IMG/VR virus record: IMGVR_UViG_3300046642_000603
Coordinates: 1 to 64,000 of that record
Origin: a virus
Length of the DNA stretch: 64,000 bases
Reading direction: 5' to 3' (one strand)
The position numbers were made by a program, and so were the translations under genes. Within the stretch, counting starts at the first letter, position 1, and every line of letters starts with the position of its first letter. This document shows, piece after piece, positions 5,952-34,434 of the stretch. The notes below the pieces were generated by a model that saw only the letters and a program-made list of their open reading frames with translations, did not search any database and had not been told where the DNA came from.

Positions 5952-5953
5952 TC

Positions 5954-6238
5954 ATGGACTGGTTCCGGCTGCTGCTGATCGCCTTCGCCACCTTCACCGC
6001 GTGGGAGTGGCTGCGTGACCTCCTGCCCACCATCCCGGCCGCGCTCCAGCCGCTGGTCGTGGTGGGCCTGGCCTACGGAGCGCAGCGTGTTCCCGGCCCG
6101 TGGCTGGCCGCTGTGGCGGCTGCCGGAGTCGTGGCGGTGCTGCACACGCAGGTGAGGGGGAGCGGGGCGGAGACGTCCTCTCTGCGCCTTCCGCGCAGGC
6201 ATCCGGCCACCGGGCGCAGGGTTCCCGACCTGCCCTGA
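5954..6238 (+). CDS. Small membrane protein, possible second holin-like protein
   Basis: A 94-residue protein with an N-terminal hydrophobic helix (WFRLLLIAFATFTAW) and a second near residues 34-62, then a basic tail (RLPRRHPATGRR). It lies 2 bases after the preceding membrane protein and just before a strong terminator, so the two are probably co-expressed. Function is inferred only from size, topology and context. Confidence 0.5.
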   Translation: MDWFRLLLIAFATFTAWEWLRDLLPTIPAALQPLVVVGLAYGAQRVPGPWLAAVAAAGVVAVLHTQVRGSGAETSSLRLPRRHPATGRRVPDLP

Positions 6239-6253
6239 TTGTCAAGCACAAGT

Positions 6254-6280
6254 AAAACCCCGCTAGACAAGCGGGGTTTT
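6254..6280 (+). terminator. Intrinsic terminator
   Basis: Perfect 10-bp stem (AAAACCCCGC / GCGGGGTTTT) with a 7-base loop, ending in a T-run. It closes the structural operon and could also work on the opposite strand. Confidence 0.9.
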
Positions 6281-6299
6281 CTTGCTTTTAGAAGCCGTA

Positions 6300-7598
6300 A
6301 TGGCTAAGGTCTTCCTTGTTGCCAACCACGGCAGCGACCACCACAACACTGGAGCAGACTTGAGCAAGCAGCCCATCACCCTGGCCTTCGCTGGTTCCGC
6401 CGACATCGACCCCGAGAACGTCAAGGACCTGCTCAACGACTGGCTCGGCTTCGGCGACGAGGACAAGGACGGCTTCTTCGAGCCGAGCGACCGCGAGGTC
6501 AACCTGATCTTCCCGGTCACCCGGGAGCACCTGTCCGACGGCCTGGAAGCGGTCCTCGGCTGGGCCGAGAAGGCCGACCTCCCCTACGTCGCCGTCGCGG
6601 ACAACAAGCGCAGCCGCGCCACCGAGCAGATCCTCAAGGACGCCGAAGAGACCGTCCACGTCGCCAACGTCACGGCGGGCGTCGTCGACCTGCTGAAGAA
6701 GGCCGACAGCGTCGGCGACGAGGTCCACGTCATCCTCCTGTGGGGCGACGAGGGCAGCGAGCAGGCCGAACTCCTCCTGGACGCCGCCGACCAGGCGGGT
6801 ATCAAGGCCAAGGACCTCACCGCCGGGCTCGACGACATCAGTTTCGGCGAGCAGCCGCAGGCCGAGGAGCCGGAAGAGGAGCCCCAGCCGGAGCCCGAGC
6901 CGGAGCCCGAGCCGGAGGCCCCCAAGCGTGGCCGTCGCCGTGGCCGCCGTGCTGAGCCGGAGGAGGCCGAGCCGGAGGAGGAGCCGCTGACCGAGGAGGA
7001 CGCGCCGGAGGAGCCCAAGGCCGAGGAGCCCAAGCGTGGCCGTCGCGGTCGCCAGGCCGACCCCGAGCCGGAGCCCGAGGAGCACCCGGTCGAGCAGGAC
7101 ATCCAGGAGCAGCAGGAGGACCTGGAGCAGGAGGTCAACCGCGCCGCGCAGAAGATCCAGCGCGAGACCGCCCCGGTCTCCGACAAGGAGATCGACCTCA
7201 TCCTCATCGGCAACGCTTTGGAGGGTGCCTACAACGCCTTCCGCCTGGAGGACGAGCGCAACGCGGTCATCAACCAGGCCGAGGTACGCCTCCGGCCGCT
7301 GACCGAACTGCTGGCCAAGGCGCTTAATATCGTCGCCGACTCGGTCCACGACAAGGAGGCCGAGAAGCAGGAGCGCCCGGCCGAGAAGAAGGCCGAGGAG
7401 CCGGAGGAGGAGCAGCAGACCTCCGGACGCCGTCGCCGTGGACGCCCGCGCGACGAGAGCAAGACGTTCGCCTTCCTGGTGGACGACGAGGGCAACTACA
7501 GCCGTCGTGGCCGTGGCCGTATCCCGGCCGGACAGACCGTCGTCCACCTGACCCGGGCGGAGATCGAGGAGAAGGGCCTCGAACTCGACTCGGAGTGA
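6300..7598 (+). CDS. Acidic repeat protein with AT-hook-like basic patches
   Basis: A 432-residue protein starting at ATG 6300, preceded by a GCCGTAAT element. Residues 1-180 form a compact alpha/beta domain of unknown type. Residues ~185-280 are low complexity, alternating Glu/Pro blocks (PEPEPEPEP) with KRGRRRGRR and KRGRRGRQ patches. The C-terminal ~70 residues contain GRRRRGRPRD, an AT-hook-like core (RGRP), and RRGRGRIPAG. It stands alone between two terminators, which suggests strong independent expression, as for an abundant nucleoprotein. One CTTAATATC copy lies at residue 342. Function unknown; DNA binding is inferred from the basic patches only. Confidence 0.75.
   Translation: MAKVFLVANHGSDHHNTGADLSKQPITLAFAGSADIDPENVKDLLNDWLGFGDEDKDGFFEPSDREVNLIFPVTREHLSDGLEAVLGWAEKADLPYVAVADNKRSRATEQILKDAEETVHVANVTAGVVDLLKKADSVGDEVHVILLWGDEGSEQAELLLDAADQAGIKAKDLTAGLDDISFGEQPQAEEPEEEPQPEPEPEPEPEAPKRGRRRGRRAEPEEAEPEEEPLTEEDAPEEPKAEEPKRGRRGRQADPEPEPEEHPVEQDIQEQQEDLEQEVNRAAQKIQRETAPVSDKEIDLILIGNALEGAYNAFRLEDERNAVINQAEVRLRPLTELLAKALNIVADSVHDKEAEKQERPAEKKAEEPEEEQQTSGRRRRGRPRDESKTFAFLVDDEGNYSRRGRGRIPAGQTVVHLTRAEIEEKGLELDSE
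7323..7331 (+). repeat. CTTAATATC element 2
   Basis: Leu-Asn-Ile, residues 342-344 of the acidic repeat protein. Confidence 0.88.
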
Positions 7599-7603
7599 GT
7601 AAC

Positions 7604-7662
7604 GCAAAAGCCCCCGGCGCTGAAGAGGTTCGAGACCTCAATTCACTGCCGGGGGCTTTTGC
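7604..7662 (+). terminator. Long intrinsic terminator with nested hairpin
   Basis: Perfect 15-bp stem (7604-7618 with 7648-7662; GCAAAAGCCCCCGGC) enclosing a second 5-bp hairpin (GAGGT...ACCTC, 7625-7639). It ends the transcript of the acidic repeat protein. Confidence 0.88.
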
Positions 7663-7712
7663 CCACCACACCCCGAGGCCCACCACAAACCCCGAGATGG
7701 GAAGAACCTAAC

Positions 7713-7760
7713 ATGTCGAGCCGACTTAATATCAATCACTTCCTGGCGGTGACTGAGTGA
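7713..7760 (+). CDS. 15-residue micro-ORF carrying the CTTAATATC element
   Basis: ATG at 7713 opens a 15-codon frame (MSSRLNINHFLAVTE) whose TGA overlaps the GTG of the next gene (GTGA). A weak purine stretch (GGGAAG) precedes it. The element at 7725-7733 is read as Leu-Asn-Ile, the same frame as every other copy. Translation is plausible because of the tight coupling to the next gene, but not proven. Confidence 0.45.
   Translation: MSSRLNINHFLAVTE
7725..7733 (+). repeat. CTTAATATC element 3
   Basis: Inside the 15-residue micro-ORF. Confidence 0.88.
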
Positions 7761-9028
7761 GCCTTGCTATCACCGCCGAGGTCTGGAAGCACGCCCCCAT
7801 AGGCAAGGGTGACTTGCTGGTGCTCCTGCGTATAGCGGACGCCGCCGGGGAAGAGCACCGGATGATGTGGGAGTCCGTCAAGACGCTCGCCAAGCACACC
7901 CGCATGACCGAGCGCAGCATCTACAACAGCCTGCGCAACCTGGCGCTCCAGGACATCATCGAGACGGTTCCGAAGGAGGCTGCGCCCCCGGAGGCGCGGC
8001 TGTACAAGTCCGTGGTCCGCCGCGTCCGCCCCGTGGAGGAGTGGATCGACCTCAAGACCCCGGAGGAGCGGGAGGCCGCCGAGCGACGCCAGGCGGTGCG
8101 TGACCGGTTCGAGGCCAAGGCGGGAGAGTTCCGCCGGAAGATCCTCGCGCGTGACGGAGCGGTCTGCCGTCACTGCGGGGAGACGGATGAGTCTGTGCTG
8201 GTCTGTGACCACATGATTTCCGTCTACGACGGGGGTACCAACGACCTGGAAAACCTCCAGATCCTGTGCGTCATGTGCAACTCCCGCAAGGGTCGGCACA
8301 GCGAAGTTGGTATGCAAAATTTGCAGGGTCCAAAGCCGGACATAGCCTCCCTGCAAAATCTGCACCCTGAACAGGTTTCATACAACCCCAATAACCAACT
8401 GGAAGTTAGAGATATAGAAGAAACTACGTTTCTTCCACCGCGCCGGTCGGCACGGTCTGATTCCGGCGGAGCCGAGGAGATCCCTTCGAGGCCGGGTGCT
8501 CGTGGCTGGGATGCGGTTGCGGCTCCCCGTCGTGGCGGCCGGAAGAAGACCCGGAAGCAGCAGGCGGAGGAGGCCGCCCTGGCGGAGAAGGAACTCGACC
8601 CGGCGTACGTCGTGGCCCAGGCCCTCGGCGAGGAAGATCCAGGAAGCAGCCCCGCTGGCCGTCTCCCGGCCTCGGACAGCGACCTGGCCCCTCCGGTCCG
8701 GCGACCTCGTGAGAAGCGCTCCAAGAGGCCGTCGGAGGAACTGGCCGAGTTCTTCGGGAAGCGGGCCGAGGAGGTAGGCCACCCGGTACCTGGCGCCACC
8801 AACCTCAGAGCCCTCACCGGACAGTTCGGCCGGTGGATGGCCCAGGGCCTGGAACGGGAGACGATCCGGCAGATGGTCCTGACGTACTGGTCGTCCTCCT
8901 GGAGCCGGTCGGAGAACCATCCGGCCTGGAAGGACTTCCTCGCTGCCCGTGGTCTGCTGACCGAGCGGCTGGGCAAGGCTGAGAACGTGATGGAGAAGCA
9001 CCGGCACGACGAGTCCTACTGGGACTGA
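7757..9028 (+). CDS. Winged-helix/HNH replication initiator-like protein
   Basis: A 423-residue protein, GTG start. Residues ~1-75 form a winged helix (SVKTLAKHTRMTERSIYNSLRNL) like phage replisome organisers. Residues ~125-180 are an HNH domain with two CxxC pairs (CRHCG, CVMCN), the DHMISVYDGG core and NLQILC. An AT-rich hinge follows, with the repeated peptide MQNLQ/LQNLH encoded by two iteron-like DNA repeats. The rest is basic and low complexity, with a final helical domain (LTGQFGRWMAQGLERETIRQMV). It is the first gene of the replication module, right before helicase loader and helicase, which supports initiator function. Whether the HNH part is active or a captured module is open. Confidence 0.75.
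   Translation: MSLAITAEVWKHAPIGKGDLLVLLRIADAAGEEHRMMWESVKTLAKHTRMTERSIYNSLRNLALQDIIETVPKEAAPPEARLYKSVVRRVRPVEEWIDLKTPEEREAAERRQAVRDRFEAKAGEFRRKILARDGAVCRHCGETDESVLVCDHMISVYDGGTNDLENLQILCVMCNSRKGRHSEVGMQNLQGPKPDIASLQNLHPEQVSYNPNNQLEVRDIEETTFLPPRRSARSDSGGAEEIPSRPGARGWDAVAAPRRGGRKKTRKQQAEEAALAEKELDPAYVVAQALGEEDPGSSPAGRLPASDSDLAPPVRRPREKRSKRPSEELAEFFGKRAEEVGHPVPGATNLRALTGQFGRWMAQGLERETIRQMVLTYWSSSWSRSENHPAWKDFLAARGLLTERLGKAENVMEKHRHDESYWD
8312..8432 (+). other. Candidate replication origin: iteron-like repeats plus AT-rich segment
   Basis: Two copies of TGCAAAAT[T/C]TGCA, at 8313-8325 and 8352-8364, lie 39 bp apart inside the initiator-like gene. A stretch of ~55 bases (8377-8432) much richer in A/T than its surroundings follows. 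Iterons plus an unwinding region inside the initiator gene is the arrangement of lambda O. No functional proof in the sequence. Confidence 0.5.
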
Positions 9029-9085
9029 TGCCATCAGGGGCGGGCTGCTACGGCGGTCCGCCCCTTACGTTTACCCAAAGGCGTA

Positions 9086-9113
9086 TTCCGAAAGACGTAA
9101 TCTGTGGTAGCCT
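9086..9113 (+). promoter_or_regulatory. Promoter upstream of the DnaC-like gene
   Basis: TTCCGA (9086-9091), 16-base spacer, TAGCCT (9108-9113). The spacer holds the AAGACGTAATC half-site shared with other promoters; a second half-site-like TTACGTTT lies at 9065. The -35 is weak, so an activator may be needed. Confidence 0.5.
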
Positions 9114-9150
9114 CCTGAACGTTGAACCACCACCACACAAGGAGGCAACC

Positions 9151-9810
9151 GTGGCGACAGACCCCCGGGTCCACGCCTTGCGGCTCAAGGAGTACAACGT
9201 CCCCGCGCACTACCGGGCCCTGCGGCTTAATACCGTGGCGGACGCCCCTGAGCGCGCCGCCTGCCAGACCTGGCTCGACGAACTGCGCGACCACTACGTC
9301 ACCGACAAGCGACCCCTCACGGAGTACCCCGAGGACTGGGGAGCCATCGGCAAGGGCCTGCTGATCGTCGGCCCTCCCGGCACCGGCAAGACGACCCTCG
9401 CCACCGCCACGCTGCTGGAGGTGTACTACACCCACCGGCTCCCGGTGCACTGGCTGGCCTACGCCGACTTCGTGAAGGACTCCATCGAGAAGATGGGCCT
9501 CCAGGACCGCAGCGAGCCCGAAGCCGTCTCCCGCTGGTGGGAGATCCAGGACAAGATCGTGGCGGCCGAGAAGGCCCCCGTCCTCGTGCTGGACGACGTC
9601 GGCAAGGAGCACCGGACCAAGACCGGGTACGCCGAGGGCCTGCTGGACACCCTGCTGCGCCAGCGGCACCGCGAGGCCCGGCCCACGATCGTCACCTCCA
9701 ACCTCCCGCCCAGGGAGTGGGGCGCCGTCTACAACCCCACGATGGGCTCCTTCATCCAGCAGGCATTCACACAGGTCAAGTTGATCGGAGAGGACCGCCG
9801 TGCAGCATGA
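9151..9810 (+). CDS. DnaC-like helicase loader ATPase
   Basis: A 219-residue AAA+ ATPase. GTG 9151 is chosen as start because GGAGG sits 5 bases upstream; longer upstream frames run through the promoter. Walker A is GPPGTGKT (residues ~74-81) and Walker B is VLVLDDVG (~147-154), followed by a sensor-like IVTSNLP. These are the signatures of DnaC/IstB-type loaders that place DnaB on DNA. The DnaB gene lies 0.7 kb downstream in the same run. A CTTAATACC copy encodes residues 26-28. Confidence 0.9.
   Translation: MATDPRVHALRLKEYNVPAHYRALRLNTVADAPERAACQTWLDELRDHYVTDKRPLTEYPEDWGAIGKGLLIVGPPGTGKTTLATATLLEVYYTHRLPVHWLAYADFVKDSIEKMGLQDRSEPEAVSRWWEIQDKIVAAEKAPVLVLDDVGKEHRTKTGYAEGLLDTLLRQRHREARPTIVTSNLPPREWGAVYNPTMGSFIQQAFTQVKLIGEDRRAA
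9226..9234 (+). repeat. CTTAATACC element 4
   Basis: Residues 26-28 of the DnaC-like loader. Confidence 0.9.
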
Positions 9811-10027
9811 GCAACTGGCTCTTCCGTTCGAGGACGAGGTTTTGGTGGTTCTCTACAAACGAGAGGCCGAGTCCCGCAGCCTCCACGCGTACTGGGACGC
9901 ACTGGAGTACACCGTCCGCGTCCGCGTGAAGTCCCTCGGCTTCACCATCAAGCGCTCCAGCCGGGAGTCCTGGTACGAGGACGGGCGGCTTAATATCCAG
10001 CTCCGCGCAGAGGCGGAGCGCACCTGA
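9800..10027 (+). CDS. Small unknown protein
   Basis: A 75-residue GTG-start protein overlapping the loader gene by 11 bases and the next gene by 1. It is mixed charge and soluble, with a CTTAATATC copy at residues 64-66 close to the C-terminus. No motif recognised; replication context only. Confidence 0.7.
   Translation: MQHEQLALPFEDEVLVVLYKREAESRSLHAYWDALEYTVRVRVKSLGFTIKRSSRESWYEDGRLNIQLRAEAERT
9989..9997 (+). repeat. CTTAATATC element 5
   Basis: Residues 64-66 of a 75-residue protein. Confidence 0.88.
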
Positions 10028-10485
10028 TGGAACGGGGCGACATCTCCAACGAGGTCGTCCCGCGCTTGGTCATCGCGTACGAAGGCATGCTCGGCGTCCT
10101 GCCCGAGAAGCCCGAGGGGTACGTCACCGAGCTGGTCGCCCGCAAGTTCGGGCGCCGGTCTCGTCAGGCCAAGCGGACCGTGGACGCATACGAGATCAAC
10201 GACGCGCTGGCCCGGGTCATCTGGGACACCGTCTGGCGGTTCAAGTACTCGGTCGACGTCGTCACCTACCTCGGAGACGACGCCGTCGAGCCCCTGGAGG
10301 CCCGCCTGGACGCCGAGGGACTTCCCATCGGCCGGGTGTGGGCCACGACCCCGGAGCGGCTGGCCAGACGCCTGCCCTACATGCCGGACGTCGCCGCGAT
10401 CTTCGACAACGAACACCACCTGATCTTCGGCAGCAAGGGCCGTGCCCTGCCCGCCGCACCCACCACCCTCTTGGGAGCACTTTAG
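10027..10485 (+). CDS. Unknown protein of the replication operon
   Basis: A 152-residue protein, ATG overlapping the previous stop. The N-terminus is helical and basic (RKFGRRSRQAKRTVDAYEIND); the C-terminus reads like a short alpha/beta unit (RVWATTPERLARRLPYMPDVAAIFD). It lies between loader and helicase, so a replisome accessory role is possible, but no known domain is recognised. Confidence 0.7.
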   Translation: MERGDISNEVVPRLVIAYEGMLGVLPEKPEGYVTELVARKFGRRSRQAKRTVDAYEINDALARVIWDTVWRFKYSVDVVTYLGDDAVEPLEARLDAEGLPIGRVWATTPERLARRLPYMPDVAAIFDNEHHLIFGSKGRALPAAPTTLLGAL

Positions 10486-11751
10486 ATGGCTGACTTCGAG
10501 CGGCTGCTCGTCTCCCGCGTCATCCAGGACAAGGACCTGGCCGTCGTCGCGGACGCGGGCGTCACTGCCGAGTTCTTCGGCGACCCGGACAACAAGGCCG
10601 TCTTCAAGGCGATCCTTCGGCACAAGGCCACCTACGGCGAGATCCCCAGCCTCGCCACCATCAAGACCGACTTCCCGATGTACCGGTTCGTCAAGGTCGA
10701 GGACAGCATGCAGGTGCTGACCGACCGGCTGCGTGAGCAGCACACCCTGGCGCTGCTGGAGCAGGGCCTGGCGGACTCGGTCGACGCCCACGAGGAGGGC
10801 AACGCAACCGGTGCGATGGAGGCGCTGGCCCGCACGCTGGCATCCATCGCCTCGGCCGTCCCCAACGCCCGCGACACCGACCTGACGGAGACCGGGCAGG
10901 AGCGCCTTGCGCGGTACCTCACGCTCAAGGACCTGCCCGACGGGCTCCGGGGTGTGCCGACCGGCTTCAACACGATCGACAGGGCCACCCAGGGCCTTCA
11001 GAAGGAGCAGTTGGTCACCTTCGTCGGCCCGCCGAAGGCCGGTAAGTCGACGCTGCTGTTGTTGGCTGCCATGGCTGCGCACCTTTACGGTGAGCGCCCG
11101 CTTTTCATCGGCTTCGAAATGTCGAATGAGGAGCAGGAGGAACGTTTCGACGCGATCCGTGCGGGGATTTCGCACGCCCGGCTGCGGAACGGAACTCTGA
11201 AGAAGGCGGAGTGGGACAAACTCGAAAGGGCCCTGCGGGAACTGGAGGCTATGCCTTCGTTCTTCCTGTCCTCGGACTCCATGAATGCGACGACGCTTAC
11301 CGGTGTGCAGTCGAAGATTGACGCCATTCGGCCGACGATCGTATTCGTGGACGGCATCTACATGATGCAGGACGAACTCGGCGAGGCTCAGGGATCCAGT
11401 CAGGCGCTTACCAACCTCACCCGAGGATTCAAGCGCATGGCGAAGAACCTTCAGATCCCTCTCGTCATTTCCACGCAGGTCCTGGAATGGAAGATGAACA
11501 AGAAGAAGGGGATCACCTCCGACTCGATCGGATACTCGTCCTCTTTCGCCCAGGACTCCGACGTGATTCTCGGTGTGGAATCCACGGAGGACGCGAACAT
11601 CAACAAGATCAAGGTCGTCCTGGCCCGTAACTGCCCGCCCCTGGAGACGTACTGCCAGTGGGACTGGGAGACCGGCAAGTTCGAGGAACTGAACGAGGAC
11701 CCGTTCGCCATGGACGAGATGAACACCGATGGCTATGTCGGATCCTTCTGA
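10486..11751 (+). CDS. dnaB: DnaB-like replicative helicase
   Basis: A 421-residue RecA-fold helicase. An N-terminal helical domain (~1-130) is followed by a linker and the ATPase core: Walker A GPPKAGKST (~180), a Walker-B-type IVFVDGIYMM (~287), and the downstream Q/S-rich IPLVISTQVLEW region. Length and order match DnaB family members. It unwinds the fork and should work with the DnaC-like loader and DnaG-like primase encoded on either side. The stretch 11.1-11.6 kb has somewhat more A/T at third codon positions than its neighbours. Confidence 0.93.
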   Translation: MADFERLLVSRVIQDKDLAVVADAGVTAEFFGDPDNKAVFKAILRHKATYGEIPSLATIKTDFPMYRFVKVEDSMQVLTDRLREQHTLALLEQGLADSVDAHEEGNATGAMEALARTLASIASAVPNARDTDLTETGQERLARYLTLKDLPDGLRGVPTGFNTIDRATQGLQKEQLVTFVGPPKAGKSTLLLLAAMAAHLYGERPLFIGFEMSNEEQEERFDAIRAGISHARLRNGTLKKAEWDKLERALRELEAMPSFFLSSDSMNATTLTGVQSKIDAIRPTIVFVDGIYMMQDELGEAQGSSQALTNLTRGFKRMAKNLQIPLVISTQVLEWKMNKKKGITSDSIGYSSSFAQDSDVILGVESTEDANINKIKVVLARNCPPLETYCQWDWETGKFEELNEDPFAMDEMNTDGYVGSF

Positions 11752-12028
11752 GCCCCGGCTGGTAGTCCTCGCCGGGAACTTCCGGGAGTTCCAGTTCTGG
11801 TGCAGGGAGAACGAACGCAATCCCCGTGACCGGAATCTGATATACGCCAGCGAATTCCACCGGCTGCGCGGCCTGGGAAAGTTCCGGTACATCACGTACG
11901 GAACCTGGTATTGGCGCCGCGACGCCTGGGAGATCAAGAACTACCTCGACTACCTGGTAAGGAGAGAGCAGTGCCCCGAGCAAAGGCCGGGTGGGACGCC
12001 ATTGGCAACCCCATCCCCGGAAACGTGA
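11735..12028 (+). CDS. Small unknown protein between helicase and primase
   Basis: About 97 residues from ATG 11735 (ATG 11729 is an alternative), overlapping the helicase end and the primase start. It is rich in Arg, Trp and Tyr (GKFRYITYGTWYWRRDAWEIKNYLDYLVRRE). No known domain recognised. The tight overlaps argue it is a real co-translated gene. Confidence 0.65.
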   Translation: MSDPSEPRLVVLAGNFREFQFWCRENERNPRDRNLIYASEFHRLRGLGKFRYITYGTWYWRRDAWEIKNYLDYLVRREQCPEQRPGGTPLATPSPET

Positions 12029-12936
12029 CAGCCTGCCTCGACACCCTCGAACTGGAATACAAAGTCCAGGGCGACGAGATTCATATGCCCTGCCCCATGC
12101 ACGAGCAGCGCACCGGAAAGAAAGACGCGCACCCATCCTTTTCCATAAACTACGACGAGGGATATTTCAACTGCTTCTCCTGCGGATACCGTGGCGCGTT
12201 CTGGGTCCTCGTCCGGGACGTCCACGAGATCTCCGAGGCCGACGCCAAGAACTGGGTCCGGCGCAGGGGAGGAGCGGAGAGGGTCCGGAAGTACCTGGAG
12301 AAGAAGAAGGAGCAGCGCGCCGACAAGGCCGACACGACGAAGCAGATCAATGAGGCGTCGCTGGCCCTGTACACCGTGCCTCCGCTGAGTGCCTGCGCCG
12401 AGCGGCTGTTCATGCCGGAGGACGCGGAGGCGTGCGGGGTGCTGTGGGATCCGGCCCGGGACATGTGGATCGTTCCGGTGCGCGACCCGGACACCGGGAT
12501 GCTGTGGGGCTGGCAGGAGAAGAACGCCCGGTACTTCCGCAACCGGCCGCCGGGCATGGCCAAGTCGAAGACGCTCTTCGGGCTGGACACCTACGACGAC
12601 GACGTGGCCGTGCTGGTCGAGTCGCCGCTGGACGTGGCCCGGCTGTGGGCCTGCGGGGTCAGGGGAGGGCTGGCGTCCTACGGCGCCGGAGTCTCCGACG
12701 CGCAGATGGACCTGATCCGCGACCACTTCGACACCGTCATCGTCGCCCTCGACAACGACGAGGCCGGAGCCGAGGCGTGCAAGCGGCTGCTGAAGGAGTG
12801 GACCGGCCGGGGCCTGACCCTCAAGTTCCTCGACTACTCCGTGGCCCCGCTCGCCAAGGACCCCGGCGACATGACCGCCGACCAGATCAAGGCCGCTGTA
12901 CGCGGCGCCTACTCATCCGTCGTTGCACGTTTCTAG
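11971..12936 (+). CDS. dnaG: DnaG-like DNA primase
   Basis: A 321-residue GTG-start protein behind AAGGAGAG. Residues ~40-70 form the zinc-binding domain (CPMH ... CFSCGY). The TOPRIM fold shows VESPLDVA (~216-223) with the catalytic Glu and VALDNDEAG (~258-266) with the Asp-x-Asp. It lacks the C-terminal helicase-interacting domain of bacterial DnaG, so it is short, as in many phages. It makes RNA primers at the fork with the neighbouring DnaB. Confidence 0.9.
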   Translation: MPRAKAGWDAIGNPIPGNVTACLDTLELEYKVQGDEIHMPCPMHEQRTGKKDAHPSFSINYDEGYFNCFSCGYRGAFWVLVRDVHEISEADAKNWVRRRGGAERVRKYLEKKKEQRADKADTTKQINEASLALYTVPPLSACAERLFMPEDAEACGVLWDPARDMWIVPVRDPDTGMLWGWQEKNARYFRNRPPGMAKSKTLFGLDTYDDDVAVLVESPLDVARLWACGVRGGLASYGAGVSDAQMDLIRDHFDTVIVALDNDEAGAEACKRLLKEWTGRGLTLKFLDYSVAPLAKDPGDMTADQIKAAVRGAYSSVVARF

Positions 12937-12945
12937 GAGACCGAC

Positions 12946-12990
12946 ATGACCCGGCTTAATACCTGCCCCCGCCAGGGGGACCACCGATGA
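12946..12990 (+). CDS. 14-residue micro-ORF carrying the CTTAATACC element
   Basis: ATG 12946 has a perfect AGGAG 6 bases upstream and opens a 14-codon frame (MTRLNTCPRQGDHR) ending in TGA that overlaps the ATG of the next gene (ATGA). The element at 12955-12963 is read as Leu-Asn-Thr. The strong ribosome-binding site argues that it is translated. Confidence 0.6.
   Translation: MTRLNTCPRQGDHR
12955..12963 (+). repeat. CTTAATACC element 6
   Basis: Inside the 14-residue micro-ORF. Confidence 0.9.
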
Positions 12991-13283
12991 AGGCACCCGA
13001 GGGCTACGAGCACCTGGGTGAGGACTTCTGGGCCCGCGTCGAGCCGGACCCGGACACCGACTGCCTCATCTTCCAGTCCACCGCGACGCGGCCGTACTAC
13101 CAGGGCAAGACTCTGCTGTCCTTCCTGACCGGCGGCGACGGCCGACAGAAGCACCGGGCGTGCAGGCGCCGGATGTGCGCCAACCCGGACCACATCCAGG
13201 ACGGGCACTTCGACATGGGGACGCCGTACGCCCGGCGCCCCCGGTCGAGTTCGCAGTTCGCCCGTCAGTACTCGCAGTGCTGA
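12987..13283 (+). CDS. HNH-like small protein, probably partial domain
   Basis: A 98-residue protein with Arg/Cys-rich CRRRMCANPDHIQDG near residues 58-72. This resembles the C-N-P-x-H-I/L segment of HNH_3-type phage endonucleases. The expected downstream HNH half is short or missing, so it may be a remnant or a DNA-binding derivative. It is translationally coupled to the micro-ORF before it and overlaps the SNF2 gene after it. Confidence 0.6.
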   Translation: MKAPEGYEHLGEDFWARVEPDPDTDCLIFQSTATRPYYQGKTLLSFLTGGDGRQKHRACRRRMCANPDHIQDGHFDMGTPYARRPRSSSQFARQYSQC

Positions 13284-14917
13284 CCGTCGACCTCCACCCC
13301 TTCCAGGAGTCTGCGGCCGACAGGATGGTGGAGAGGGGCTGCCTTCTCGTTGCCTACGAGATGGGGCTGGGCAAGACCGTGCTGGCCCTGGCCGCCATCG
13401 AGGAGCTACTGGAGAAGGGGGAGGTCGAGACCGCCGTCATCGTGGTCCCGGCCAACCTCAAGTACCAGTGGGCCAAGTCCATCGCGAAACTCACCGACGT
13501 GCCGACCCGTGTGGTCACGGTGCGCGAGGACGGGCTGAAGCAGGAGATCACCGTCCCGACGGAGGAGTACTGCGTCCTGATCGACGGCGACGCGAAGAAG
13601 CGCGCCGGGCTGTACGCCAAGGTCAAGACGCTCCGGCCGGACTACGTGATCCTCGGCTACGAGAACGTCGTCAACGACTGGAACTTCGTCAGGAGGATCA
13701 AACCGGAGTGCATCGTCCTCGACGAGTGCACCGCGATCAAGACGTTCCGGGCCCAGCGCACCAGGAAGATCAAGCGGCTCACCGCGCCGTACCGCTTCGG
13801 GATGACCGGCACTCCGGTGGAGAACGGGAAGCCCGAGGAACTGTTCTCGATCATGCAGTGGGTCGACGACCAGGTCCTGGGCCGGTTCGACCTGTTCGAC
13901 AAGACGTACATCGTGCGCAACAAGTTCGGCGGGGTGCAGAACTACCGCAACCTGCCGGTGCTGCACGCCAAACTGGCCGAGGTGATGGTCCGCAAGACGC
14001 GGCTGGACGAGGACGTCCGGCCGTACCTGCCCGAGGTGCAGGAGTCGGTCATCCCGGTCGCCCTGGACGCCAAGACGAAGAAGGCATACCAGGCCATCGC
14101 GGGGGACCTGCTCGCCGAGCTGCGGGCGGCCGGGCCGACGATGGGTGACTTCGATCTGTTCGCGCACTACCACGGGGGAGAGGCGGGCAACGAGAACAGC
14201 CAGCAGGGCAAGATCATGTCTCGCATGCAGGCGCTGGACATGCTGCTGAACCACCCGGACCTGATCGTCATGTCCGGGCAGAGTTACGAGGAGAGCGAGG
14301 AGGCCCGGCAGCGGGGCGTGCAGAAGAAGGTGTGGCCGGGCTCGAAGTACGCGTACGAGGTGTGGCAGTCCGGCCTGCTCGATGACGTCACCACGGCCCC
14401 GAAACTGGACGCCGTGGCGGCTGCGGTCGAGGACATCATGGCGGTCCCCGGAAACAAGATCATCGTCTTCTCGGTCAACCCCGACATGCTGGACCTGATC
14501 GGTGACCGGCTGCCGGAGAACTCGTTCGTCACGTACACCGGCCGGATGTCCTCGGCGGCCAAGGCATATGCCGCCCAGCGGTTCGAGACCGACGAACAGT
14601 GTCGGGTGTTCCTGTCCAGCCACGCGGGAGCGTTCGGCACCGACCTGTACATGGCCAACTACCTGATCAACTACGACCTCGCCTGGTCGGCCGGGAAGCA
14701 GGACCAGATCAACGCCCGGCACAACCGAGCGAGCAGCCAGTTCAAGGACATCTACATCCTGAACGCCATCACGTCGGGCACCACCGAGCCACGCAAGCTG
14801 GCGATGCTGGCGCACAAGCGCAGGGTGGGCAGCGCCATCACAGACGGGCGCGGAGCCGACGAGAAGGGCCGGATCGAGAACGACGTCCAGACCCTTACGC
14901 AGTGCCTGGAGGCGTAA
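13277..14917 (+). CDS. SNF2-family DEAD-like helicase/ATPase
   Basis: A 546-residue protein; start GTG 13277 overlaps the previous stop and gives the expected N-terminal Q-like motif LHPFQESAADRM. Helicase motif I is EMGLGKT (~28-34), motif II is VLDECTAIK (~147-155), motif III FGMTGTPVENGKP, and the C-terminal lobe has motifs V/VI (DLYMANYLINYDLAW, QINARHNRASS). Phage SNF2 proteins are thought to help remodel forks or recombination intermediates; substrate unknown. Confidence 0.88.
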   Translation: MLTVDLHPFQESAADRMVERGCLLVAYEMGLGKTVLALAAIEELLEKGEVETAVIVVPANLKYQWAKSIAKLTDVPTRVVTVREDGLKQEITVPTEEYCVLIDGDAKKRAGLYAKVKTLRPDYVILGYENVVNDWNFVRRIKPECIVLDECTAIKTFRAQRTRKIKRLTAPYRFGMTGTPVENGKPEELFSIMQWVDDQVLGRFDLFDKTYIVRNKFGGVQNYRNLPVLHAKLAEVMVRKTRLDEDVRPYLPEVQESVIPVALDAKTKKAYQAIAGDLLAELRAAGPTMGDFDLFAHYHGGEAGNENSQQGKIMSRMQALDMLLNHPDLIVMSGQSYEESEEARQRGVQKKVWPGSKYAYEVWQSGLLDDVTTAPKLDAVAAAVEDIMAVPGNKIIVFSVNPDMLDLIGDRLPENSFVTYTGRMSSAAKAYAAQRFETDEQCRVFLSSHAGAFGTDLYMANYLINYDLAWSAGKQDQINARHNRASSQFKDIYILNAITSGTTEPRKLAMLAHKRRVGSAITDGRGADEKGRIENDVQTLTQCLEA

Positions 14918-14935
14918 CTTCCAGGATCTCACGAG

Positions 14936-15007
14936 GCACGTCGAGTGGTTCTAAACCCGTAATCGCATGGCACCATCAGGGTATGCGAGAAGAACCACTC
15001 GACGTGC
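14936..15007 (+). repeat. 17-bp inverted repeat enclosing a start codon
   Basis: GCACGTCGAGTGGTTCT at 14936-14952 is perfectly complementary to 14991-15007. The 38-base loop contains CCCGTAATC and the ATG of the next small ORF (14983). In RNA the stem would include codons 4-8 of that ORF and could control its translation. Confidence 0.85.
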
Positions 15008-15117
15008 TGCTCCGTGAGGGGCTTGACCACGTCATATGCCCTCCGGAGGAGCAGGAGGACTGGGATCTGACCCCCGTCCGCCTGGCGCTCCGTGGTGCCC
15101 CAGCCGACCGCTGGTGA
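14983..15117 (+). CDS. Small acidic unknown protein
   Basis: A 44-residue frame (starts MREEPLDVLLREGLDH) beginning in the loop of a long inverted repeat. The AGGG upstream is only 1 base from ATG, too close for a normal site, so initiation may be leaderless or depend on the hairpin. No similarity recognised. Confidence 0.45.
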   Translation: MREEPLDVLLREGLDHVICPPEEQEDWDLTPVRLALRGAPADRW

Positions 15118-15127
15118 AGTTGTAAAC

Positions 15128-15173
15128 CGGATTCGGCGAATCCGTTGACAAGGGCATATGCGGAACGTAGAGT
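15128..15173 (+). promoter_or_regulatory. Promoter with upstream palindromic operator
   Basis: TTGACA (15145-15150), 17-base spacer, TAGAGT (15168-15173). A palindrome CGGATTCG-G-CGAATCCG (15128-15144) touches the -35 box, a good place for a regulator. Drives the DUF4258-like gene. Confidence 0.8.
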
Positions 15174-15225
15174 CGTCCTCACGAAGCGTTGATCGAACGA
15201 AGGATCAAACCACGCAGGAGGACGC

Positions 15226-15591
15226 ATGACCACCATCGCGGAAGCCCTCGGCATCTCCTGGGGCAACGGTGCAACGGACGCCCCCGAGTACCGGCTGACC
15301 TACCACGCACAGCAGCAGGCCGCAGCCAAGGGCTGGACCAGCGCGCAGGTGCTGGAGGCCGCGAACCGCCCGCAGCACACCTCCCCTTCCAGCCGGTTCC
15401 CCGGCCAGCAGCGCCACGTCCGAGGCGAGATAGTCGCCGTCGTCGACCCGGCCGACCACCGCGTCATCACCGTCTACCAGGACGTCCGTGAGACCGGTCT
15501 GCGCACCGACCAGACCGACCGCGACGCGAAGCGCTACGCCACCCGCCTGGGTCAGCAGGTCCCGGCCGAGGTCGACGAAGTTACGTACTGA
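15226..15591 (+). CDS. DUF4258-like protein
   Basis: A 121-residue protein behind GGAGG. The core (residues ~22-90) has H-A-x-Q-Q-x-A-x-x-K-G-W, a central arginine-rich strand with RHVRGEIVAVVD, and VITVYQDV, resembling DUF4258 proteins, which share the BrnT/RelE-like fold. No antitoxin partner is recognisable next to it. It has its own strong promoter, so it may act early. Confidence 0.6.
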   Translation: MTTIAEALGISWGNGATDAPEYRLTYHAQQQAAAKGWTSAQVLEAANRPQHTSPSSRFPGQQRHVRGEIVAVVDPADHRVITVYQDVRETGLRTDQTDRDAKRYATRLGQQVPAEVDEVTY

Positions 15592-15609
15592 GAAACACGT
15601 AATCTCGAA

Positions 15610-15638
15610 TGGACAATCTCGAAGACGTAATGTAGAGT
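15610..15638 (+). promoter_or_regulatory. Promoter
   Basis: TGGACA (15610-15615), 17-base spacer containing GAAGACGTAATG, TAGAGT (15633-15638). Another CACGTAATCTC half-site lies just upstream (15597-15606). Drives the gene at 15688 and probably the ssDNA-binding/polymerase run. Confidence 0.72.
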
Positions 15639-15687
15639 CGGACCTGCTCAACCGACCTACTACTCCGTAGAAAGAGAGCCCCGCTCT

Positions 15688-16164
15688 ATGGCTACCGTGC
15701 AGAGACGAGCAACCCAGCGCATCGAGCGCCCCATCTCCCTCAACCAGGCCGCCCCCTGGGAGAAGACCCGCCAGTTCCTGGCCCTGAAGTTCCAGGAGAC
15801 CGAGATCGTCACCCGCAAGAACAAGTTGCGCGACGAGGTCAGCGTCCACGTGGACGCCAACGGCGACATCGACGAGAAGGGCAGCAAGTTCTGGAAGTTG
15901 GACCCGCCCATCGAGGTCAACGGCCAGAAGTTCACCGAGGTCAAGCGTGAGCGCCGCGTCAGCGTGAACCTGGACGAAGAGGCCGTCGAGACCCTGGTCA
16001 ACGCCAAGGGGATCCGCGACCGGGTCTTCAAGCAGGTGACCCAGGAGGTCCTGGACCAGGACGAGTTGTACGTCCTCAACCAGGAAGGCGTCATCACCGA
16101 CGAGGAACTGGACGGACTGTTCACCGAGACCGAGTCCTTCGCGTTCAAGCCCATTCGCGGCTGA
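15688..16164 (+). CDS. Unknown acidic protein
   Basis: A 158-residue soluble protein with alternating charged helices (NLDEEAVETLVNAKGIRDRVFKQVTQEVLDQDELY). It is the first gene after a promoter, upstream of an HTH protein and the putative ssDNA-binding protein. No known domain recognised. Confidence 0.75.
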   Translation: MATVQRRATQRIERPISLNQAAPWEKTRQFLALKFQETEIVTRKNKLRDEVSVHVDANGDIDEKGSKFWKLDPPIEVNGQKFTEVKRERRVSVNLDEEAVETLVNAKGIRDRVFKQVTQEVLDQDELYVLNQEGVITDEELDGLFTETESFAFKPIRG

Positions 16165-16179
16165 TAGGAGACCCACCAC

Positions 16180-16650
16180 ATGAGCACCGTCGCAGACACC
16201 ATCGACCAGTCCTTCGCCGAACTCGGTGAGCAGTTCTACCCCGGCTCGACGCGCCCCCTGGTACGTCACCGCAACCGCCTTAATACCGAGGCCGCCGCGT
16301 CGGCGGCCGAACCCGGAGCATGGGACGCCAAGCCCCGTAAGTACGTCGTGGCCGGAGTCGAGACGGAGTTCTTCACCGTCGGCGACCTCGCCAAGGCGCT
16401 GGGACGGCAGCCCGTGACCATCCGGAAGTGGGAGCGCGAGGGAGTCATTCCCAAGAGCACCTACCAGTCCCCGGGCAAGGACGGAGACGTACGCGGCCGA
16501 CGCCGCCTGTACATCCGCGAGCAGGTCGAGGGCATGGTCCGCATCGCGCACGAGGAAGGCGTCCTCGTGTCCCACCAGAAGCCCATCAAGGGCACCCGCT
16601 TCACCGAGCGCGTCGTCGCCCTCTTCAAGGCCCTGGCGGGCGACGAGTGA
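16180..16650 (+). CDS. MerR/excisionase-like helix-turn-helix protein
   Basis: A 156-residue protein, start ATG behind AGGAG. Residues ~67-110 contain FTVGDLAKALGRQPVTIRKWEREGVIP, a typical MerR/Xis winged-helix segment, followed by a basic RGRRRLYIREQ wing. Such proteins bind specific DNA to regulate transcription or recombination. A CTTAATACC copy lies at residues 34-36, in the N-terminal linker. Confidence 0.75.
   Translation: MSTVADTIDQSFAELGEQFYPGSTRPLVRHRNRLNTEAAASAAEPGAWDAKPRKYVVAGVETEFFTVGDLAKALGRQPVTIRKWEREGVIPKSTYQSPGKDGDVRGRRRLYIREQVEGMVRIAHEEGVLVSHQKPIKGTRFTERVVALFKALAGDE
16279..16287 (+). repeat. CTTAATACC element 7
   Basis: Residues 34-36 of the HTH protein. Confidence 0.9.
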
Positions 16651-16883
16651 GGATCGTCAAGAGCCAGAAGCACCACGTGTCCATGGGGAACTTCGAGTGG
16701 GTGGAGTTCGGCTACGAGGTCGACATCACCACCGACGACTTCCCCAAGGCACGCACCCTCGACGACCTGGACAAGGTCGCCACCGACCAGATCACCAAGG
16801 CCCTCGCGGCCGACATCGAGGAAGCCCGTCTCAACACGGGCGAAGCATCCTCGTACATCCATCTCTACCAGCAGGAGAACTGA
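16647..16883 (+). CDS. Small unknown protein
   Basis: A 78-residue GTG-start protein overlapping the previous stop (GTGA). It contains Leu-Asn-Thr (residues 62-64) written CTC-AAC-ACG, i.e. the peptide without the nucleotide element. This is a useful control showing that the repeated element elsewhere is conserved as DNA. Confidence 0.65.
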   Translation: MRIVKSQKHHVSMGNFEWVEFGYEVDITTDDFPKARTLDDLDKVATDQITKALAADIEEARLNTGEASSYIHLYQQEN

Positions 16884-17699
16884 ATGCCCCGCACCCTGAC
16901 CCGCCGCCGCACCGCCCGCGACACCGAGGCGTACTCCCCGGCCGACGAGCCCGAGGACGAGCAGGGCTACGCGGAGGAAGAGGACGAGGCCCCGGCCCGT
17001 GGCTCCCGCCGAGGCTCGCGCCGCAGCCTTAATACCGAGGAGGCCGACACCTCCCGACGCTCCCGCCGCGCCCCCGCGCGTGACGAGGACGACGACGAGG
17101 ACGACGAGCCCACGCCGAAGGTCGGCGGCCGTGGCTGGGGATCGTACGAGAAGACCAAGCAGGCGTCCTCCGGCTTCCCCGACAACTTCAAGGCGTCCAC
17201 CGAGTCCGTGATCGTGAAGTTCCTGGACGAGGAGCCGTTCCTGGTCTTCCTCCAGCACTGGATCGAGCGCTCCGGCAAGAAGTCATTCACCTGCCTGGAG
17301 AGCAAGTGCCCGCTGTGCGACGACGCGGGTGACAAGCCCAGCCAGCAGGTCTCCTTCAACGTCGTCGACTTCACCGACCCCGAGGACCCGCAGGTCAAGG
17401 TCTGGCAGGTCGGCCCGATGGTCGCGGACATCCTGAAGAACTACGCCAAGGACAAGAAGACGTCGCCGATCAACCGCGACGACCTCTACTTCTCCGTCCG
17501 CAAGGAGACCAAGAACAAGAAGACCAACTACTACATCACGCCGGTCAAGGAGCGTGACCTCCTCGACGACTGGGACATCGAGCCCCTGAGCGAGGACGAC
17601 CTGGAGACGTTCGACGCCAAGGCGTACGACGAGGACATCCTCCAGGTCACCCGGCGCACGGAACTCAAGGTCATCGTCCGCGAGATCCTGAACGACTAG
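16884..17699 (+). CDS. Probable single-stranded DNA-binding protein
   Basis: A 271-residue protein. Residues 1-85 are a disordered acidic/basic tail with a CTTAATACC copy (residues 49-51). The core from ~90 has a zinc-ribbon-like CLESKCPLCDDAGDKP and beta-rich strands (VSFNVVDFTD, VKVWQVGPMV, YYITPVKERDL), as in gp32/T7-type phage SSBs. The gene precedes DNA polymerase, which fits a replication-fork coat protein. The acidic tail lies at the N-terminus rather than the more usual C-terminus. Confidence 0.65.
   Translation: MPRTLTRRRTARDTEAYSPADEPEDEQGYAEEEDEAPARGSRRGSRRSLNTEEADTSRRSRRAPARDEDDDEDDEPTPKVGGRGWGSYEKTKQASSGFPDNFKASTESVIVKFLDEEPFLVFLQHWIERSGKKSFTCLESKCPLCDDAGDKPSQQVSFNVVDFTDPEDPQVKVWQVGPMVADILKNYAKDKKTSPINRDDLYFSVRKETKNKKTNYYITPVKERDLLDDWDIEPLSEDDLETFDAKAYDEDILQVTRRTELKVIVREILND
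17028..17036 (+). repeat. CTTAATACC element 8
   Basis: Residues 49-51, disordered tail of the ssDNA-binding-like protein. Confidence 0.9.
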
Positions 17700-17710
17700 C
17701 AGCCTCCGAC

Positions 17711-17743
17711 GGGGAGGCTCCAGCACAGCGCTGGGGCCTCCCC
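17711..17743 (+). terminator. Intrinsic terminator/attenuator
   Basis: 14-bp stem (17711-17724 with 17730-17743, GGGGAGGCTCCAGC) with one wobble pair and a 5-base loop, between the ssDNA-binding-like gene and the polymerase gene. No strong T-run follows, so read-through is likely. Confidence 0.6.
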
Positions 17744-17778
17744 CTCAGCTTCCCCATCCACCACCACCGGAGCCCGCT

Positions 17779-19758
17779 GTGAAGATCCGCAACTCCGTCA
17801 TCCTCACCCCCGACCGACTTAATACCGTGGTCGAGCGCTTCATGGAGCGTCCGGCCTTCGCATTCGACATCGAGACCTTCGGCCCCAACCGAGGCGTCCC
17901 GACGCAGAACGTCGCCAACTGGCTCTCCCTGGCCTCCGACGGCATGGCCTACGCCATCCCCTTCGGGCACCCCAACGGCGACGTCCTGATCAGCAAGGCC
18001 ACCCGCAAGAAGAACCGGCTCACCAACAAGTTCGACGCCATCCCGGCCGTCTACGACGCCCCGCCGGAGCAGATGCTCCCGAGCGAGGTCTTCTCCATCC
18101 TCCGGCCGCTGTTCTTCGCCGAAGACAAGATCAAGATCGCGCATAACGCCACGTTCGACCTGATCTCCACGGCGAAGTACTGGGGCGAGATCTGCCCGCC
18201 GGAGTACAGCGACACCATCGTCCTTCAGTGGCTCCTCGACGAGAACATGAAGCAAAAGGGCCTGAAGGAGTTGATCAAGCGCTACTACAAGGTCGACTAC
18301 GACACCGAGAACGTCGGCAAGTGCGTCGAGGCCCACCCCTTCTCGAAGGTCGCCCACTACGCGTACATGGACTCCAAGTACACGTGGCTGCTCTGGAAGC
18401 GCTACCAGAACCAGATCAAGGAGCAGAACCTCACCCACGTCCGGCGCCTGGAGGAAGACGTCCTGGGGGTGCTGCTCGACATGGGCATCACCGGAGCACC
18501 GGTCGACGAAGCCGCGATGCGTGAGCTGGTACAGGACATGTCCGCCCGGCTCGTCGACATCGAGGCCGACATCTACCGGGCCGCAGGCAAGCAGTTCAAC
18601 CTGAACGCCCCGGCGCAGAAGGCCGAGGTGCTGTACGCCCCCAAGAGCGACGGCGGCCAGGGCCTCAAGCCGATGAAGCCCACCGACGGCGGCAAGAAGA
18701 AGCGCGACGCGGGCCAGACGCTGGAGTGGAAGGACTTCAGCACCGACTCCGACAGCCTGGAGAAGCACCCCAACAACCCGGTCGTCAAGAAGATGCTGGA
18801 GTACGCGGAAGTCAGCAAACTGCTCGACTACCCCATCGCGTACCTCGGTGTCGAGGACGACCCGAAGAAGCCGTGCCGGATCTTCAACGGCAGGATCCAC
18901 GCCGACTTCGTCCAGTACGGGACGGTGACCGGCCGGTTCTCCTGCCGCGAACCCAACCTCCAGAACATCCCCCGGCCCGACACCGACCTCGGCAAGCGGA
19001 TCCGTGGACTGTTCGTCGCACCGCCCGGCTACAAGCTGGTCGTCGCGGACTACGGGCAGATCGAACTCGTCGTGCTCGCGCACTTCATCGGCCGTGGCGA
19101 CCTCTACAAGGGGTTCCACAACGGCGTCGACCCGCACTCGGCGACGGCTGCCGCGCTGATGGGTGTGGACCCGCAGGAGTTCATGCGGCGGGTCAAGGAA
19201 GGCGACCGCACCTGCATCGACTTCCGCCAGGTCGCCAAGGGCATCAACTTCGCCGTCGTGTACGGCGCGGGCCCGGACAAGGTCGCCTCGATGGCAGGCA
19301 TCTCCGTCAAGGACGCCAAGCGGTTCATGGAGATGCACCAGAAGATGTTCCCGGAGATCTACCGCTTCAAGGAAGAAGTCATCCGAGTGTGCCGGTCGCG
19401 TCGGCCCGCACACATCCGCACCCTGCTCGGCCGCAAGCGGCGCCTGCCGCTCATCCTCAGCCAGAACAACGGCCTGCGGATGGGAGCCGAGCGCCAGGCG
19501 GTGAACTCCCTCATCCAGGGATCCGCCGCCGACCTGATCAAACTGGCCATGATCCGGCTGAACAGCGCACTGCCGGACGAAATGCGCCTGATCCTCTCCG
19601 TGCACGACGAACTCGTGACGCTCGCGCCGGAGGACCGGGCCGAGGAATGCGCCGACCTGGTTCGGGAAGCCATGCTCGGCGAAGGAATCCAGAAACTCCT
19701 GCGCGTCCCACTCTCGTCGGACGTGAAGATCGTGGACCGCTGGTCGGAGGCAAAGTAA
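17779..19758 (+). CDS. polA: DNA polymerase I (family A)
   Basis: A 659-residue GTG-start protein. The N-terminal 3'-5' exonuclease shows FAFDIETFG (~28-36), AHNATFDL and YMDSKYTWLL. The polymerase part has VTGRFSCREPNLQNIPRP, motif A VVADYGQIELV (~420-430), motif B RQVAKGINFAVVYGAG and motif C SVHDELV (~605-611). It lacks a 5'-3' exonuclease domain, as is common in phages. The catalytic Asp in motifs A and C and the exonuclease acidic residues are present, so it should be active and proofreading. A CTTAATACC copy encodes residues 14-16, before the first domain. Confidence 0.96.
   Translation: MKIRNSVILTPDRLNTVVERFMERPAFAFDIETFGPNRGVPTQNVANWLSLASDGMAYAIPFGHPNGDVLISKATRKKNRLTNKFDAIPAVYDAPPEQMLPSEVFSILRPLFFAEDKIKIAHNATFDLISTAKYWGEICPPEYSDTIVLQWLLDENMKQKGLKELIKRYYKVDYDTENVGKCVEAHPFSKVAHYAYMDSKYTWLLWKRYQNQIKEQNLTHVRRLEEDVLGVLLDMGITGAPVDEAAMRELVQDMSARLVDIEADIYRAAGKQFNLNAPAQKAEVLYAPKSDGGQGLKPMKPTDGGKKKRDAGQTLEWKDFSTDSDSLEKHPNNPVVKKMLEYAEVSKLLDYPIAYLGVEDDPKKPCRIFNGRIHADFVQYGTVTGRFSCREPNLQNIPRPDTDLGKRIRGLFVAPPGYKLVVADYGQIELVVLAHFIGRGDLYKGFHNGVDPHSATAAALMGVDPQEFMRRVKEGDRTCIDFRQVAKGINFAVVYGAGPDKVASMAGISVKDAKRFMEMHQKMFPEIYRFKEEVIRVCRSRRPAHIRTLLGRKRRLPLILSQNNGLRMGAERQAVNSLIQGSAADLIKLAMIRLNSALPDEMRLILSVHDELVTLAPEDRAEECADLVREAMLGEGIQKLLRVPLSSDVKIVDRWSEAK
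17818..17826 (+). repeat. CTTAATACC element 9
   Basis: Residues 14-16 of DNA polymerase. Confidence 0.9.
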
Positions 19759-20226
19759 ATGGGCATCTTCAGCCGCAAGAACGACGACGACATACCCGAC
19801 ATCCTTAATACCGAGGAGGACGACCTCCAGGTCGACCTCTACACCCCGCAGATGCTCACCAAGCGGCTGGCCTGGGACATCGTCCCGTGCAGCGAGGTCG
19901 AGGCACTGCTCCCGCTCATGGGACTCAGCCCCGACAGTGCGGAAGTATCCGAAATGGAGCACGAGGCCAGCCACGACCGGATAGAACAACTCACGCCGCT
20001 GAAGGAAATGCTAGCGCTGCTCATCCCGCTAGTTTCCGGCATTACTGCCTCGGCTATGCTGGTTAACTCCGGAAATTCCGTGGACGAGGAAACCGCCGCA
20101 GTTCTCCAGCGGCATCATTCCGTCGTCGTCCGCGCCGGAGTGGTGGCGGTCCTCGCCAATCTCCTCGACATGGGAATCATCACGTATTCGGATGGAGTGC
20201 AGTTCGGTGACCAACTTCTGGGCTAA
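19759..20226 (+). CDS. Unknown protein after DNA polymerase
   Basis: A 155-residue protein starting on the base after the polymerase stop. An acidic N-terminus (with CTTAATACC at residues 16-18) is followed by a hydrophobic helical middle (LALLIPLVSGITASAMLV) and a second (VVAVLANLLDMGIITY). It may be membrane-associated or a helical bundle. No known family recognised. Codon use is a little less GC-biased toward its end. Confidence 0.7.
   Translation: MGIFSRKNDDDIPDILNTEEDDLQVDLYTPQMLTKRLAWDIVPCSEVEALLPLMGLSPDSAEVSEMEHEASHDRIEQLTPLKEMLALLIPLVSGITASAMLVNSGNSVDEETAAVLQRHHSVVVRAGVVAVLANLLDMGIITYSDGVQFGDQLLG
19804..19812 (+). repeat. CTTAATACC element 10
   Basis: Residues 16-18 of the gene after polymerase. 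Confidence 0.9.
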
Positions 20227-20656: not shown

Positions 20657-20687
20657 CGCCCACTCCTCCCTGCCGCACCACTACTGA

Positions 20688-22649: not shown

Positions 22650-22693
22650 AACTCGTTAAAAGATCTTGCTCTGACTAGTTGATACATGGCTGG

Positions 22694-22734: not shown

Positions 22735-22780
22735 TCTGCTTTACGGCTTCGGCATTACGGGATTGGAAGACACCACACAC

Positions 22781-26692: not shown

Positions 26693-26699
26693 CCACCAC

Positions 26700-34433: not shown

Positions 34434-34434
34434 C

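Follow-up and report, generated by a model that had tools for sequence, protein, structure and literature searches.

Comparison of 11 related phage contigs and genomes suggests that the 9-mer CTTAATACC would be a cis-acting mRNA element that is active only when translated in frame, and that the micro-ORF at 12946-12990 would be a minimal translated cassette, keeping the element, a start and the stop/start junction after loss of the rest of a 65-codon gene. The element would be read by a sequence-specific, phage-type-specific trans factor, for which the phage's own solitary HicA-like protein is the best candidate. This putative reader would act while the ribosome is held up at a hairpin, CTT being in its P site and AAT or CAT in its A site, and would either cut or block the message, which would lower the expression of about 30 phage genes, the HicA-like gene included, for example in lysogeny or in defence against a superinfecting relative. 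Taken as a whole, we regard this reading as evenly poised between right and wrong.

The relatives were collected from IMG/VR via the DNA polymerase, and the group consists of soil phages, probably with Streptomyces as host. In the window, i.e., the whole stretch of 64,000 nucleotides that was analysed, CTTAATACC occurs 22 times, always on the plus strand, compared to 0.02 copies expected (Table 1). The complete 75.9-kb record holds 26 forward and 0 reverse copies. Orthologs of the variant copy at 9989 lie within their own short ORFs in G008, G002, and G009. A stretch of 17.5 kb (41745-59258) is devoid of exact copies, and the relatives are also element-poor there; such a stretch would suit genes exempt from control.

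Table 1 Coordinates of the element copies, the micro-ORFs and their neighbouring features (window numbering unless stated)
Feature	Position	Strand	Remark
Exact copies of CTTAATACC (22)	5673..62883	+	each in frame 0 of an ORF
Copy starts	5673, 9226, 12955, 16279, 17028, 17818, 19804, 21273, 22787, 23963, 24407	+	frame 0
Copy starts, continued	27213, 29147, 32110, 35005, 36076, 36676, 39695, 41736, 59259, 60462, 62875	+	frame 0
Second micro-ORF of like build, MSSRLNINHFLAVTE and stop	7713..7760	+	variant CTTAATATC at 7725; TGA overlaps next GTG 7757
Variant copy CTTAATATC	9989..9997	+	frame 0 near 3' end of small ORF
DNA primase gene	11971..12936	+	ORF upstream of micro-ORF; homology to Streptomyces phage Alone3
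AGGAG, ribosome-binding-like	12935..12939	+	read directly; overlaps primase stop TAG 12934-12936
Micro-ORF MTRLNTCPRQGDHR and stop	12946..12990	+	14 codons; frame kept in all relatives with element at this site
Element CTTAATACC	12955..12963	+	codons 4-6 (Leu-Asn-Thr) of micro-ORF; sister-group homologs are CTTCATACC
Stem-loop CCCCC-GCCA-GGGGG	12966..12979	+	stem begins at nt 12 from C of CTT, two bases after element
98-aa ORF	12987..13283	+	start overlaps micro-ORF stop
Solitary HicA-like gene	75231-75518 of record (G000, L059)		outside window; ends in element

Among the 11 genomes, two forms of the element are mutually exclusive. The LNT genomes contain 20-37 copies of CTTAATACC per large contig and no CTTCATACC, while the LHT genomes, about half of the relatives, contain 23-34 copies of CTTCATACC and no CTTAATACC; the polymerases of the two sets are 85-90% identical. 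Orthologous mapping yielded 77 site classes, with 36 common to both sets, 16 found only in LNT and 25 only in LHT genomes, and the distinguishing base is switched at each of the common sites. Flanks of common sites are about 64-90% identical, and the element keeps around 8 of its 9 bases. In the polymerase tree, the element types do not form clean clades: the LNT genome L024 groups with LHT polymerases, so the element type goes with the genome rather than with the gene tree. Where homologs lack the element, the peptide is often unchanged but written in preferred codons (CTGAACACC, CTGCACACC), which indicates that copies were gained and lost largely via third-position changes and that conservation acts on the nucleotides rather than on the peptide. 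In more distant homologs, the residues at these positions are unrelated. The element is better written as CTT-(A or C)AT-A(C/T)N, followed by two bases and a G+C hairpin. Exceptions to the pattern are single CTTCATA sequences near the HicA-like gene in several LNT records and one CTTCATACG copy antisense to a called gene in G009.

Beyond this group, the closest isolated phages (BRock, Alone3, and pSt2308) carry 0-1 copies of the element. An INPHARED search for the nearest DNA returned no match, a GTDB scan with the polymerase found no relatives, and an Rfam scan of the window gave 0 matches above the gathering score. The element-free relative G012 (L081-L086) contains a 9-mer of its own, ATCCCAACT, on both strands (6 and 5 copies, 0.13 expected).

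Within called sense-strand genes of the 11 genomes, CTTMATAY lies in frame 0 in 351 out of 351 cases and never in frames 1 or 2. At the level of site classes, 71 of 77 fall into called coding sequences, in frame 0, and the other six into ORFs of their own. Reverse-strand copies sit in reverse-strand ORFs and forward copies on forward genes. The frame bias of CTTAATACC alone could reflect avoidance of TAA and TTA. For CTTCATACC, frames 1 and 2 are free of stops, and synonymous changes could create the motif in either: in G004, 11 and 10 positions are reachable in these frames compared to 46 in frame 0, about 40 of which are already elements. All 22 LHT-only classes inside genes are in frame 0, a result expected by chance with a probability of ~3e-4 under a conservative reachable fraction of 0.69 and ~3e-11 under a fraction of one third.

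Copies outside called genes (about 44 instances) likewise lie in an open frame with a start, most of them preceded by a Shine-Dalgarno-like sequence; the only copy lacking a start falls within the polymerase gene, at the edge of its contig. Some of these frames are genuine genes missed by the caller (e.g., 41634-42017 in the window), and others are true micro-ORFs, among them MTRLNTCPRQGDHR, MSSRLNINHFLAVTE, MRLHTYGGPC, MTLHTCGGCP, VRRLNT, MKTIRLHT, and MNRLHTWAAE, each ending at a stop. At the site homologous to 22787, the element forms codons 3-5 of a gene in LNT genomes and sits in a micro-ORF of its own, immediately ahead of that gene, in LHT genomes, which indicates that translation of the element is kept even though its relation to the gene is not. 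The preliminary description had raised the possibility that the element must be translated; the uniform frame within genes and the ORFs around the remaining copies strongly support this, and we consider it very probable, on the comparison of sequences, that the element works only when translated. In G008 (L060, 1-3519), a reverse 49-codon ORF with the only reverse-oriented element lies directly upstream of a large serine-recombinase-like gene, beside which there is a tyrosine-integrase-like gene.

Direct reading of the micro-ORF at 12946-12990 recovered every part noted in the preliminary description, namely the AGGAG (6 nt before the ATG), the start at 12946, the element as codons 4-6, and the overlap of the TGA (12988-12990) with the ATG (12987-12989) of the downstream ORF. 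Its naming of the neighbours was supported for the primase, whose G008 ortholog matches positions 68112-69071 of Alone3 inside the annotated DNA primase; the label HNH-like for the downstream 98-aa ORF is unproven, as no Pfam match was obtained at E <= 0.1. Translation of the micro-ORF itself is predicted from the comparison of relatives, and the GGGGG arm at the 3' side of its stem-loop could serve as a Shine-Dalgarno sequence for ATG 12987.

The relatives point to the origin of this micro-ORF. In L029, L031, and L034, the locus is occupied by a gene of 65 or 66 codons (MPYNKRRLHTCGKRRF...EAANAGA and stop, or similar), and this full-length form, at about 5050, encodes a cysteine-containing small protein of 65 or 66 amino acids. 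L028 (MNNRLHTWAEAANASA and stop) and L046 (MNNRLHTRAEAANASA and stop) are intermediates in which the start, the element and the C-terminal tail of the 65-aa gene are kept and the middle is gone, and the LNT genomes encode MTRLNTCPRQGDHR or variants thereof. In one relative (G009, L040), frame and element are both gone. Every relative that keeps the element at this locus has it in an open frame with a start; a relative with the 9-mer but without the frame was searched for and none was found. Judged by this deletion series, the micro-ORF is a 65-codon gene reduced to element, hairpin, start, and stop. The idea of a frame built around the element stands insofar as the element appears to be kept translated; the frame was not newly built and appears as the deletion remnant of the 65-aa gene.

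The other part of the element as written above is the G+C hairpin that follows it. The segment from +9 to +36 folds with -8.7 to -9.8 kcal/mol; for in-frame positions drawn at random, the values are -5.1 to -5.4 kcal/mol (five genomes, p 2e-6 to 7e-12), and upstream and further-downstream windows fold near control level. A perfect stem of at least 5 bp starting at nt 12 is present in 33 of 77 classes versus 6% of controls, with a sharp peak at this position. This distance is approximately that of the mRNA entry of a ribosome that holds CTT in the P site and AAT or CAT in the A site. Taken singly, the hairpin at the 12955 site is not better than dinucleotide shuffles of its G+C-rich sequence (z 0.05), and the hairpin is missing or shifted at roughly a third of the sites. 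In the relatives of the micro-ORF, the loop bases vary and the stem persists. Covariation of the stems, counted without gaps, is mixed, with 54 double changes kept and 340 broken, many of the latter perhaps from shifted stems; the case for the hairpin is therefore based on enrichment and position, not on covariation. The sites of phage lambda known as nut (boxA plus boxB) also consist of a short single-stranded RNA sequence followed by a hairpin. The present element shares this build but differs in having about 30 in-frame sites instead of one or two leader sites and a loop that is not conserved.

Among 129 shared protein families, none separates the two groups more strongly than the HicA-like protein, which has a mean identity of 75-77% inside a group and 38% across groups; families G008_132 and G008_038 are nearly as dichotomous. 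The LNT type has a loop insertion. The gene ends in GLNTRP or a degenerate GLNL in LNT genomes and in GLHI or GLHTS in LHT genomes. Protein type and predominant element type agree, with CTTCATA at the LHT-type loci and CTTAATA at the LNT-type loci or in their records. These matches are not independent, and the link is based on two groups and hence on one or few evolutionary events. In G000 (L059), the gene has an apparent promoter of its own, a degenerate element of its own (CTTAATCTC), and a long terminator-like inverted repeat downstream, the position of which is conserved in L139.

Assignment to the HicA family draws on profiles, fold and one motif. Pfam HicA_toxin (PF07927) matched weakly in 7 out of 11 members, the best match having an E value of 5e-5 and 23.7 bits compared to a curated cut-off of 27; the G008 and G000 versions gave no match to the HicA HMM, and an INPHARED search with the protein found none. 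An AlphaFold2 model of the LHT protein (pLDDT 73.7) has the order H-E-E-E-H (alpha-beta-beta-beta-alpha). Its top structural neighbour was 1whz (probability 0.97, E 0.038), with the HicA structures 6g26 and 4p78 further down and no match reaching E 0.001 in this search. GGNH is invariant in the 11 HicA-like sequences, and its histidine may be the catalytic one, by analogy to E. coli HicA. Known motifs of E. coli toxins are short. Compared to HicAB systems, the phages differ in having about 30 long target sites in their own genes and no match to HicB_lk_antitox (PF15919) in six genomes (G000, G008, G004, G009, G019, and G016). The likeness to the HicA mRNA interferases lies in the fold topology (PMC10865869), the GGNH histidine, and the codon-phase cleavage described for E. 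coli HicA, which cuts with a strong preference right before the first base of codons, a behaviour that the authors of that study could not easily square with an enzyme acting independently of ribosomes (PMC8546651). Cleavage in codon phase would explain why the target sites must be in frame. The outgroup G016 (L139) encodes a homolog that is 46% identical, yet CTTNATACC is absent altogether and no alternative element was recognised; the HicA-like protein alone thus does not imply the element, and its role as reader has to be inferred. We regard it as the best candidate for the reader, with belief and doubt in equal measure.

A rival explanation is that another factor reads the translated element, such as a different protein of the phage, a factor that varies from host to host, or a small RNA. 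G016 with its homolog and no elements speaks for this, as do the two other families that split cleanly and the many clade-specific genes without known function. For a small RNA, an exact complement of the element (GGTATTAAG) is absent from G000 and the antisense near-matches found did not switch with the type, and an antisense RNA was rejected; among the proteins, only the HicA-like one combines an RNase fold, the dichotomy, and an element in its own gene. We therefore consider a non-HicA reader somewhat improbable. A reading at the DNA level is less probable still, and we judge it unlikely: the 9-mer would be a repressor site that halts transcription elongation, with frame 0 as a by-product of coding constraints. 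It draws on the stoperators of Cluster A mycobacteriophages (L5, TipsytheTRex repressor), where many asymmetric sites in one orientation relative to transcription go along with one cognate sequence per genome and drifting specificity (PMC6550527, PMC9283540), much like the 20-37 asymmetric sites per genome and the two exclusive types found here, and HTH-type regulators are present. However, a stoperator is a 13-bp stretch of DNA to which a two-domain HTH repressor binds, located in a promoter or a short gap between genes, whereas the copies described here are frame-0 codons with RNA hairpins and micro-ORFs and lie inside called genes in 71 of 77 classes. A DNA site has no reason for a constant frame 0, for micro-ORFs, or for an RNA-type hairpin at a fixed distance, and in the CTTCATACC group all three frames are open to the motif. 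The element thus resembles stoperators in number, orientation, and one-type-per-genome specificity, yet on account of its position, frame, and RNA structure it does not count as one.

Two further explanations were considered. As a mere leftover of the 65-aa gene, or a coupling leader for the next gene only, the micro-ORF would fit the deletion series, the stop/start overlap, and the GGGGG before ATG 12987, and it does resemble the tiny ORFs with a ribosome-binding site that precede genes in attenuation and coupling leaders. Unlike in such leaders, these codons are found again, in frame, within dozens of unrelated genes; at the micro-ORF, element, hairpin, and start have outlasted the loss of all else and the stem is retained while its loop varies, and unrelated loci show the same arrangement. 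We consider this explanation very unlikely. Even less credible is a recoding signal, in which codons and hairpin would program a frameshift or bypass. In its favour, the codons are rare and a hairpin follows them at the distance of ribosome entry. Against it, stops in the shifted frames are about as far away as at random positions, and a shift to -1 within CTTAATACC runs straight into a stop. Further, the residues of the element sit in ordinary conserved protein sequence, e.g., at codon 14 of the DNA polymerase. A programmed frameshift element was rejected, as there is no productive shifted frame and no pattern in the shifted-frame stops.

Returning to a translated element with a HicA-like reader, its sites lie mid-gene, which suggests silencing rather than useful processing. 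The phages look temperate, based on integrase-like genes that we recognised by eye at the left end of G008, and maintenance of lysogeny or control of superinfection would be a natural guess for the purpose. More tentatively, and with doubt outweighing confidence, a solitary HicA-like ribonuclease might confer translation-dependent immunity and self-control on a temperate actinophage group, in which about 30 messages would carry an in-frame target (CTT-AAT-ACC or CTT-CAT-ACC with the hairpin) for ribosome-coupled silencing, the two types would be exclusive "languages" differing by one base, and micro-ORFs, at places lacking a suitable gene, would be kept solely to present the target to ribosomes. 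The two "languages" would then be like heteroimmune classes, written in mRNA codons instead of DNA operators.

If the preferred reading is right, a nucleic-acid signal would act in codon phase throughout the genome of a virus, every copy of it having changed by one letter between relatives, and viruses would have a new means of labelling their mRNAs as self. ORFs of 6-20 codons, which annotation ignores, would also gain a function, and the puzzling codon-phase cleavage by HicA would gain a setting with a defined natural target. The two element types and the two candidate readers provide natural pairs that can be tested. A literature search for the 9-mer gave chance matches only; for similar in-frame repeats or HicA-phage systems, the search returned nothing matching, and no genome-wide in-frame element of this kind was found described in the literature collection searched.

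Several other features of these genomes were recorded. The record L059 contains phage tRNA genes for Pro, Phe, Leu(CAA), and Asn(GTT) at 7113-8279, and G004 has an additional His tRNA call of unusual length (86 nt). Phage tRNAs were considered and rejected as the cause of the Asn/His switch, given that both types have tRNA-Asn and that G004 was the only scanned genome in which a tRNA-His was found. At 100445-101480 of G008 (L065), and in orthologs, a reverse-strand pair encodes an XRE-type HTH protein and a DUF397-like small protein (families assigned by eye), which is possibly a repressor module. In G008 and G004, GCTTGACA/TTGACAA is strongly enriched and looks like a phage promoter family with the -35 sequence TTGACA.
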